29,982 nt of DNA, taken from positions 1 to 29,982 of IMG/VR virus record IMGVR_UViG_3300042509_000299. One strand, 5' to 3'. The first letter of the stretch is position 1, and the number at the start of each line of letters is the position of its first letter. The notes below the pieces were generated by a model. It saw only the letters and a list, made by a program, of their open reading frames with translations. It was not told where the DNA came from and did not search any database. Source of the stretch: a virus. This document shows positions 5,614-8,615 of this stretch, piece after piece. The position numbers and the translations under genes were made by a program.

Positions 5614-6522
5614 CTAAAAGTCCAATCCTTTAATATTTTTTGCTTGTAGTAAGTTTACACCCGCATAAGTAAAGCCAATATTGTTAGGCATCATTCTTAA
5701 TTTAATAGGTGCGTCTATTGAAGTAGGTCTACCACCTGTTTCTACTTCTTTAACTTTTCTTACGTGTACTTCACTGATCATCCAGTCAGTCGGATGCTGT
5801 GTATATCTATGTATAGTAAATACATCATCAGCTCTGTTACCCCATTTACCACCACCTTCTACATCTGCCATATTAGGAGGCACAGGCAAACCATTATATT
5901 CGTGTTCTTTTGGGTGTGTTCTCCTTAAAGCTTCTGTAACAGCGTGTGTATTTAACCAAATAGATATTTGATTTTCTTTACAAAATAAACGCATTTCACT
6001 AGATACTTGATAATCGTATTCGTGGCTACCTACATTTTTCATTAAATCTCTATCTTTTGCAAGTGAGTTGTAAGGATCAATAAGTAAAGCATCATAGTGC
6101 CATTCATCGTGTATTTCTTTAGCTTCTTTAAGCAAATCTTTGTAAGTATATAGTTTATCTACATCAATTATTTTAAAGTGCTGTAATACCCAGTTTAAAC
6201 CAAATTCTATTTCATCATCAGTCATTTGCTGTATTGCTTTATTTCTAGCAAATTCTAGTATTTTTCTAGCTACTGAAGTTGAGGTATTTTCACTTGAAAA
6301 GATTAACCACTTAATATTATGCTTTATAGTATACATAGTCATTAAGTAAAGAATAACTGTAGTTTTTCCTACGTTTGCGTGTCCTATAATTACGTTAAAG
6401 TTTGCAGGTTTAAATCTAATATGTTCGTCAAATTCTGGTATGTTAATTTTAAGACCTTCTTTAACTCTACCATATTTAACATCTAAAATGTTTTTTTGTA
6501 TATCTAATAAATTCGCTAACAT
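5614..6522 (-). CDS. DnaB/RecA-type helicase-like ATPase
   Basis: A 302-aa RecA-fold ATPase. Walker A is GHANVGKTT (47-55), Walker B is DALLIDP (144-150), and a sensor-like strand WLNTHA follows (189-194). The string GGGKWGNRADDVFTIHR is typical of the DnaB C-terminal domain. The N-terminal DnaB domain is missing, which is common in phage homologues that load or act as replicative helicase, or as Sak4-like recombinases. No primase or polymerase is encoded, so it probably works with host proteins. The gene is 12 bp downstream of the ABC-GNAT gene. ATPase class is certain; helicase versus recombination ATPase is less so. Confidence 0.82.
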   Translation of the reverse strand: MLANLLDIQKNILDVKYGRVKEGLKINIPEFDEHIRFKPANFNVIIGHANVGKTTVILYLMTMYTIKHNIKWLIFSSENTSTSVARKILEFARNKAIQQMTDDEIEFGLNWVLQHFKIIDVDKLYTYKDLLKEAKEIHDEWHYDALLIDPYNSLAKDRDLMKNVGSHEYDYQVSSEMRLFCKENQISIWLNTHAVTEALRRTHPKEHEYNGLPVPPNMADVEGGGKWGNRADDVFTIHRYTQHPTDWMISEVHVRKVKEVETGGRPTSIDAPIKLRMMPNNIGFTYAGVNLLQAKNIKGLDF

Positions 6523-6534
6523 AGTTTTTAATTT

Positions 6535-7674
6535 TTAAAATAATGATATTTGATTTTGTGCTACATCTCTATAAATTTCAGTTTTAAATTTTATTATTGA
6601 AGTATCGTCATTTGATTTTTCTCCAATATATTTATAACTGTAACTTTCTCTTTCCATCATTTTTCTTCCACTTGAATCTTGTCCTGGTATTTTACCATTA
6701 CCAGCTGTTGCAATCCAATTTTTTTTATCATTTTTCATCATTTGACCAAGTGAAGGACTTACAGTTCTAACATACATTTGATGTTCTTCTTTCCAATATA
6801 ATGAACAAATATAATTAAAAACTTTTTTGCCAATACCTAAACCTTGATAATCTGGTAAAATAACCATTCTACTTAATCTTCTTGTTTTTGCATCACCAAC
6901 ACCTGGAAAAGGTAAAAATGCCATAAATCCAATTGGTTTTTCATTCATCATAATTAAAAAATTTGTACAAGCAGGATTTAAATCTTGTGTTAAATAATGA
7001 TGTTGTTTGAATAAATTCCAAGCTTCATATCTACATCGAACAATCTGAAGTTCAATTTTTGGTCGCCGAAGTGATGGCGCTATCTCAAGACGCCCTTTAG
7101 ATGGTGAATAAATCCAATCAGGTTGTAACCATTCCATTATATCAAAATGGCAAGAAGCAAGTACAATTTTTTTATTATTTCTTCTAATATACTTTTGTAA
7201 TGCGTTAGACATAGATTTAGCAACATCTCTATCAACAACTGAGGTATATTCATCGATCAATATTACTTCATTTTCTTTTGTTGTAGCTACAATATAAGCT
7301 AAATTTGCTCTATATTGTTCACCATTTGAAAGAGTATTAAATGGTCTTAACCAAGTTGGAACAGAAGCAAGTCCCATTTGTGTTAATAATAATGTTGCTT
7401 CTTCTGGTTCAATAAAATCAAAATTAGATATTAAAGATTTAGAATTATCAAAATAAGATTTATCCATTTCTTTTTTAAAGTAATTTTTTAATATAGTAGT
7501 TTTTCCTGTACCAGAACCACCATAAACTACACCTATATTCCATTCTTTTGGTAATTGTTCTAAATTAGCTTCAATAATTACACTGCTTTCTTCTTTATTT
7601 TGAATATCAAAATAATTACAAACATACTCAGTATATTTATCATTATTTATTTTATGTGTTAAATTTATTTTCAT
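6535..7674 (-). CDS. ABC-type ATPase fused to GNAT acyltransferase
   Basis: Two domains in 379 aa. Residues about 35-200 are an ABC ATPase: Walker A GGSGTGKTT (52-60), signature LSNGE (115-119), Walker B VILIDE (137-142), H-loop His176. There are no membrane segments, so it is not a transporter. Residues about 205-350 are a GNAT domain: HHYL (225-228), then RLSRMVILPDYQGLGIG (266-282), whose QGLGIG forms the acetyl-CoA loop. I know similar fusions from phages and mobile elements; Mom of phage Mu, a DNA adenine modifier, is also GNAT-like, so DNA modification is a reasonable inference but unproved. The gene follows a strong terminator with no visible promoter of its own. Alternatives are protein acetylation or anti-host activity. 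Confidence 0.85.
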   Translation of the reverse strand: MKINLTHKINNDKYTEYVCNYFDIQNKEESSVIIEANLEQLPKEWNIGVVYGGSGTGKTTILKNYFKKEMDKSYFDNSKSLISNFDFIEPEEATLLLTQMGLASVPTWLRPFNTLSNGEQYRANLAYIVATTKENEVILIDEYTSVVDRDVAKSMSNALQKYIRRNNKKIVLASCHFDIMEWLQPDWIYSPSKGRLEIAPSLRRPKIELQIVRCRYEAWNLFKQHHYLTQDLNPACTNFLIMMNEKPIGFMAFLPFPGVGDAKTRRLSRMVILPDYQGLGIGKKVFNYICSLYWKEEHQMYVRTVSPSLGQMMKNDKKNWIATAGNGKIPGQDSSGRKMMERESYSYKYIGEKSNDDTSIIKFKTEIYRDVAQNQISLF

Positions 7675-7689: not shown

Positions 7690-7717
7690 AAAAAAAAGGG
7701 TAGCTTTTACACTACCC
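7690..7717 (-). terminator. Intrinsic terminator after SSB-like gene
   Basis: On the minus strand GGGTAG, an 8-nt loop and CTACCC (arms 7712-7717 and 7698-7703) are followed by eight Ts. It lies in the 51 bp between the SSB-like gene and the ABC-GNAT gene and closes the recombination operon. Any transcript that reaches the ABC-GNAT and helicase genes from upstream must pass it. Confidence 0.85.
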
Positions 7718-8036: not shown

Positions 8037-8615
8037 TTATTTAATTTTTAATAGTTCGTCTTTTACTGATTTTGATAATTTGTATTTAGTTTCTATTGCT
8101 GCTAATTTACCACCTTTTTTTAAATATTCAATAGCTTGTGTAAATTCAGGTGTATTTTTATTTAGCCAAGATAACTCTTTTTCTTTAAATTCTGCACCAG
8201 GTTTACTATTTTCTTTTCCGTGTGTATTAGTTGCATCTGCATCTTGGGTATCGTCAATAAGTAGTAAGTTACCTAAAGCATACTTTTTACCATAACTAGA
8301 AGCTGACCCAAAAGCTTGTGGTATCTGCATACCTTTTTGTGCTAAATCTACTCCTACTATTGCAGTAGCTTTAATTTCTTGTACACCATCAATATCGTGT
8401 ATAGTTGCTGCTGAAGAAATAGTTGGTATATCACCATAAAATAAACATTCCTCAGTTATAGTAAAGTATACACCATACTTTTCATTAAATGGTTTAAGTG
8501 CTTCTAAGATATCTTCTGCACTTCTAAAATTGTACTTACCAAATGAATTAAATTTACTCTTATTCGATTTAAATTCTACTTGGATTTTACTTAGTTTTTC
8601 GTGTAATAATTTCAT
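8037..8615 (-). CDS. erf: ERF-family single-strand annealing protein
   Basis: The segment GKYNFRSAEDILEALKPF (26-43) and the C-terminal part of the core QAFGSASSYGKKYALGNLL, with DDTQDADA (100-128), match the ERF superfamily, whose hallmark is a GS-x-x-(S/T)Y-x-x-(R/K)YAL helix followed by an Asp-rich stretch. ERF proteins anneal complementary single strands during phage recombination and genome circularisation. The exonuclease partner is at 2007-2771, SSB-like protein is next, and NinG is upstream. The 192-aa length is normal. It shares one base (TAATG) with the 58-aa gene before it. Confidence 0.88.
   Translation of the reverse strand: MKLLHEKLSKIQVEFKSNKSKFNSFGKYNFRSAEDILEALKPFNEKYGVYFTITEECLFYGDIPTISSAATIHDIDGVQEIKATAIVGVDLAQKGMQIPQAFGSASSYGKKYALGNLLLIDDTQDADATNTHGKENSKPGAEFKEKELSWLNKNTPEFTQAIEYLKKGGKLAAIETKYKLSKSVKDELLKIK

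Follow-up and report, generated by a model that had tools for sequence, protein, structure and literature searches.

The window, the whole stretch of DNA that was analysed, is a 29,982-base virus record, and an ATG-initiated ORF on its minus strand encodes a soluble ABC ATPase joined to a GNAT acyltransferase domain in one polypeptide. An earlier note on this DNA had read 6535-7674 as such a fusion within a replication region, and both halves of that reading hold: the fusion is recovered by the ORF, Pfam, PHROG 11143, AlphaFold2 and Foldseek, and the gene lies between those for a DnaB-like helicase and an ERF recombinase. The features of the locus are given below in order of position; conservation is that found in an alignment of 90 sequences with identity down to less than 30%, except for the C-terminal peptide, where it refers to the clade of the window protein.

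5614-6522: DnaB-like helicase gene, downstream of the ABC-GNAT gene (Pfam/PHROG)
6535-7674, minus strand: ABC ATPase-GNAT fusion gene, 379 aa, PHROG 11143 (ORF, Pfam, PHROG, AlphaFold2)
6538-6558, minus strand: peptide QNQISLF, residues 373-379 (C-terminus), of sliding-clamp-binding type (clade conservation; consensus QLxLF)
6604-7065, minus strand: GNAT acyltransferase domain, residues ~204-357 (Pfam, AlphaFold2 fold, Foldseek)
6829-6846, minus strand: acyl-CoA pyrophosphate loop QGLGIG, residues 277-282; G278 invariant, Q277, G280 and G282 almost so
6991-7002, minus strand: HHYL motif, residues 225-228; Y227 invariant, H225, H226 and L228 almost so
7147-7149, minus strand: H-loop histidine H176 (CHFD), invariant
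7228-7266, minus strand: Walker B and D-loop VILIDEYTSVVDR, residues 137-149; D141, E142, D148 and R149 invariant
7318-7332, minus strand: ABC signature LSNGE, residues 115-119; L115, S116 and G118 invariant, E119 almost so
7495-7521, minus strand: Walker A GGSGTGKTT, residues 52-60; G52, S54, G55, G57 and K58 invariant
7690-7717, minus strand: intrinsic terminator, GGGTAG...CTACCC then eight T, upstream of the ABC-GNAT gene (sequence)
8037-8615: ERF recombinase (annealing protein) gene, upstream of the ABC-GNAT gene (Pfam/PHROG)

NinG and an exonuclease VIII-like protein are also encoded among the neighbours in the window (Pfam/PHROG). No polymerase or sliding clamp was identified among the window ORFs scanned, in a record that may be incomplete, and the phage therefore probably uses the replisome of its host. 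Since the terminator stands between the ABC-GNAT gene and its upstream neighbour, the gene probably has its own promoter or relies on read-through.

Walker A, LSNGE, Walker B (VILIDE, residues 137-142), HHYL and QGLGIG each lie at exactly the residues that the earlier note had given, while the minus-strand orientation, the H-loop, the C-terminal QISLF tail and the upstream terminator go beyond it. Pfam GNAT models exceed their cut-offs at residues 214-300 (Acetyltransf_1, E = 4e-8; Acetyltransf_7, 6e-7), ABC_tran falls slightly short of its own (4e-5), and PHROG 11143, a family of unknown function, matches residues 1-355 with 464 bits. AlphaFold2 gives two confident domains for the whole protein (mean pLDDT 88) and a GNAT fold for the GNAT domain alone (pLDDT 87.6), and in a Foldseek search of the PDB one half matches ABC ATPases and the other half GNATs. 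The fusion is real and not due to chance. As the ABC motifs and the CoA loop are conserved across the 90 diverse homologues, the ATPase and acyl-CoA sites look intact and active, and in the GNAT site HHYL probably represents the substrate side. An ABC transporter, whose ATPase motifs the protein does possess, was considered and rejected, because the ABC domain is fused to a GNAT domain and the neighbouring genes encode the DnaB-like helicase and a 97-aa ORF, with no membrane-domain partner.

Relatives are present in at least 178 IMG/VR stretches, and there are matches in 70 phage records, part of them to the ATPase half only. Close homologues are encoded by Nonlabens phage P12024S (65% identity), Tenacibaculum phage pT24 (49%) and Vibrio phage vB_VmeM-32 (47%), and distant ones by phages of Aeromonas, Leptospira, Pasteurella, Pseudomonas, Gordonia, Lactococcus and Streptococcus. 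A viral scan with the Leptospira protein as query gave one near-identical relative and nothing more, and a scan with alignment A1 yielded for the most part close relatives already recovered; PADLOC and NCBIfam scans of the window protein gave weak matches only, confined to the ATPase motifs. Iyer et al. (2021) predicted a GNAT-ABC family of DNA-modifying enzymes, citing QAX98348.1 (PMC7824862), and the idea that ABC-GNAT proteins modify DNA bases is thus an already published prediction and not a new one. The window protein is 39.6% identical to QAX98348.1 over residues 39-354, both match PHROG 11143, and by homology it is a member of this family (Iyer et al. 2013/2021), with which it shares the same two coupled domains, both with intact motifs, and likeness across most of its length. 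It differs in that its clade adds the C-terminal clamp-binding-type peptide, has replication genes for neighbours and lacks the ParB-like or formyltransferase partner. PMC7824862 places QAX98348.1 beside Tenacibaculum phage pT24, and the record is that of Aeromonas phage AsFcp_2 (L159:4854-6032); the pT24 copy is likewise homologous to the window protein. In the pT24 gene (L083:7995-9167), which the annotation splits into two "ABC transporter" genes, an in-frame stop falls within the GNAT domain; the gene may be broken, read through or recoded.

Bacterial clamp-binding peptides have the consensus QLxLF and are mostly C-terminal (PMC4549789), and UmuC of E. coli contacts beta through QLNLF (PMC3716654). 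Among the 88 distinct window-clade proteins, 85 carry the pattern Q..[LMI]F in their final 25 residues, compared to 0 of 148 from other clades, and 69 of 94 family ORFs end in it as against 9 of 891 other ORFs of the same loci; in the window, the ABC-GNAT protein is the only ORF product that ends in this way. Q373, Q375 and F379 are invariant and the linker is mostly variable in the window clade, whose sequences are related and not independent samples. The low pLDDT that AlphaFold2 assigns to the tail suggests that it is probably flexible. A conserved QLxLF-type peptide in a flexible C-terminal tail is what the ABC-GNAT protein has in common with clients of the beta clamp such as Pol IV, UmuC and IS transposases, in which the short peptide is mostly C-terminal, and UmuC-like proteins from two Flavobacteriia hold QINLF and QFNLF. 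Whereas this protein is an acyltransferase, the clients known so far comprise polymerases, repair proteins and transposases, and no acyltransferase was found among sliding-clamp clients in the literature searched.

Three window-clade proteins are exceptions to the tail motif; two (L045 and L046) have broken ends, and the third comes from vB_VmeM-32, which is T4-like and encodes a polymerase of its own. The vB_VmeM-32 ABC-GNAT protein ends in KDILDI and the polymerase in NAVLDI, a likeness that is short and weak on its own. Ligands of the T4 clamp gp45 bind it through C-termini that are alike in being hydrophobic and acidic (PMC2988020). The T4-like Aeromonas phage PX29 encodes its own gp45 clamp, and its Mom-like protein and polymerase end in GLTDLFGDF and SLTDLFGDW, respectively (L378:1432-2316 and L485:12471-15233); in AsFcp_2, a close relative of PX29, the ABC-GNAT protein ends in GLDFMFGI. 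No bacterial-type sliding clamp was found in the vB_VmeM-32, pT24 and L319 records. The ABC-GNAT tail thus appears, from these C-termini, to follow whichever clamp replicates the phage, which argues that it is not a chance peptide, and the PX29 ends suggest that a Mom-type enzyme may likewise be tethered to a phage sliding clamp. Docking of the window protein on the host clamp through its tail is well supported by these comparisons, and this tail is a new feature. Since some relatives lack a clamp tail, docking would be specific to the clade and not essential to the core activity.

The two domains are not always encoded in one frame. Of 84 classified loci, 46 have the ABC and GNAT coding sequences in overlapping frames, and many of the 46 come from Firmicutes phages (for example L157:5542-5645, L174:4452-4555, L405-L432, L168, L169, L170 and L340; among the phages are P335, MismyG, Oenococcus, Enterococcus 9184 and Thomasclavelia), where the annotation is that of an iron siderophore transporter plus a hypothetical protein. 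In every case GNAT is read in the -1 frame, a lone "+1" call appearing spurious; the two ORFs share some 85-150 nt, T-runs or A AAA AAG are found close to the frame change, and in 22 of the 34 split loci examined the GNAT frame offers no ATG, GTG or TTG ahead of the essential HYL motif. The fusion protein is probably made at these loci by a programmed -1 ribosomal frameshift.

Partner genes and genome position in relatives bear on the substrate. Of the 85 loci in the clade that Pseudomonas phage Komp_PAO1_1 typifies, 63 have a Formyl_trans_N gene next to the ABC-GNAT gene on its downstream side; Komp_PAO1_1 itself carries genes for a transposase, a DNA transposition protein and Gam. In Mu-like phages (MuA plus Gam) the ABC-GNAT/formyltransferase pair is placed after the tail genes, and in a Porphyromonas phage, whose transposase lies at 2.9 kb, it spans 32.8-34.4 kb of a total of 34.6 kb; this right end is the one that com-mom holds in Mu. 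About 50 of 80 tabulated loci lie at most 1.5 kb from the contig end on that side, to which prophage boundary calling could contribute. Such pairs of ABC-GNAT and formyltransferase-fold genes near a Mu-like right end include L164:4001-5730 and L165:4001-5604, and one can conceive of a formylated product or donor there. A ParB-like (ParB-N) gene stands immediately upstream of the ABC-GNAT gene in 17 of 17 loci from three other clades, and in Microbacterium phage Appa a Mom-like gene directly follows a ParB-like gene of the same kind. With two independent kinds of partner, the ABC-GNAT family is tied to Mom's genomic niches and shares them. A search for partners at 92 loci of the window clade gave two ParB-like and no formyltransferase matches, so this line of argument rests on relatives. 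In Gordonia phage Jace an aspartate decarboxylase gene (L166:5098-5523; Pfam 2e-33) directly follows the ABC-GNAT gene; the product of that enzyme, beta-alanine, is a CoA precursor, and the gene may therefore supply an acyl-CoA pathway.

Mom itself was compared directly. Mu Mom (PHROG 1384) and the window protein both belong to the GNAT superfamily, the fold being evident for the latter in AlphaFold2 and Foldseek, and by eye they have short motifs in common (HYS/HHYL and ELNR/RLSR). Their kin also share surroundings and ends, in that Mu-like ABC-GNAT relatives sit at the com-mom end, a ParB-like partner accompanies both, and the end of the PX29 Mom-like protein is nearly identical to the PX29 polymerase tail. 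The window protein differs in keeping the canonical QxxGxG CoA loop, which is absent in Mu Mom, and in having an ABC ATPase of its own. Membership of the Mom family by sequence was dropped, since the profile comparison was not significant (hhalign probability 0.1, with no PHROG 1384 match), a negative that is not strong because the Mom alignment held 8 sequences only. At the level of structure, a phage protein that is apparently the Mom-like protein of LP65 stands at rank 14 in BFVD, and the closest solved folds are generic protein or small-molecule GNATs, including RimI, GCN5 and HP0935; apart from family members, the substrate search returned generic GNATs only. Comparison of the GNAT domain with known folds, which the earlier note had proposed as a check, thus confirms a GNAT fold, and with a canonical CoA loop and generic closest matches the fold does not decide between substrates. 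The only solved protein to span both halves among the top 50 structural matches is TmcA (2zpa). TmcA and NAT10 likewise join a P-loop NTPase to a GNAT domain and acetylate an exocyclic nucleobase amine, which by analogy makes TmcA a structural precedent for nucleobase acetylation by an NTPase-GNAT protein. It differs in having a helicase-type NTPase and a tRNA-binding tail, whereas the window NTPase is of ABC type and has no tRNA-binding domain. Identity as a TmcA-like enzyme was rejected, given the ABC signature and H-loop in place of a helicase-type NTPase and a fold match that is partial across the two domains.

We propose, at about an even chance of being correct, that the protein is an acyltransferase that acts on phage DNA bases while docked on the host beta clamp at newly made DNA. 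The flexible QISLF peptide would dock the enzyme onto the beta sliding clamp and so bring it to new DNA; the ABC domain would dimerise upon ATP binding and grip or open the DNA for access to a base, a role of the ATPase that is speculative; the GNAT site would acylate the exocyclic amine of a base; and the mark, again speculatively, would shield phage DNA against nucleases of the host. Moderate support for DNA as the substrate comes from the published prediction, the mom-like slot, the clamp location and the partners common with Mom, and the protein would be Mom-like in action only if DNA is indeed the substrate. The identity of the base and of the acyl group, the part played by the ATPase and protection from restriction are speculative. 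The suggestion of base modification in the earlier note is in this way strengthened by the genome position and partners of relatives and by the clamp-type tail, and weakened by the missing profile link to Mom and the different loop of Mu Mom. The more general idea, that phage GNATs of the window clade and at least one Mom-like protein dock on the host beta or phage clamp so that nascent DNA is modified before restriction, is a tentative one to which we give somewhat less than an even chance.

The main rival is that the enzyme docks on the clamp but acylates a host replisome protein (the clamp, the clamp loader, a polymerase or a repair factor), which would turn replication phage-ward or disable a defence factor. 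Protein acylation, which the earlier note had held to be equally open, draws on the protein acetyltransferases RimI, GCN5 and HP0935 among the closest GNAT folds, on a clamp tail that would aim the enzyme at the replisome and is equally compatible with acylation there, and on the precedent of Rac, a phage GNAT that acetylates protein (PMC7824862). It leaves unexplained the mom-like slot and formyltransferase partner of the Mu-like relatives, the ParB-like partner common with a Mom-like gene, and those relatives that have no clamp tail, and we consider it unlikely. We also know of no dedicated ABC ATPase that is needed for protein acetylation, which counts against it further.

Two other readings seem to us more improbable still. 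The same nucleic-acid chemistry might be directed at RNA or single-stranded DNA, as in the acetylation of tRNA cytidine by TmcA, whose standing as the sole two-domain structural match in the top 50 is joined by a weak sequence match to a NAT10-type RNA cytidine acetyltransferase (E = 0.14); but the ATPase is not of the TmcA helicase type, the clamp tail suits DNA more than tRNA, and the slot at the Mu right end is one for DNA modification. Nor is it probable that the protein is a defence or exclusion effector against other phages and no modifier of phage DNA. Its ABC half does weakly resemble the defence ATPases PADLOC mad3 and AbiLi, and placement in Mu-like phages is moron-like, but those matches are weak and comprise ATPase motifs only, the window gene is located amid replication genes, and DNA processing fits the clamp tail and partner genes better.

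Acylation of phage DNA bases by a clamp-docked enzyme thus provides a testable model for a family that in many phages is labelled "unknown function" or mis-annotated as an iron/heme transporter. The model is directly testable, since a close homologue is found in the cultured phage P12024S and more distant ones in P335 and the Mu-like Komp_PAO1_1. If it is true, a small phage without a polymerase of its own would mark its new DNA at the host fork, an acyltransferase would join the known clients of the sliding clamp, and the family would hint at an as yet undescribed DNA base modification.
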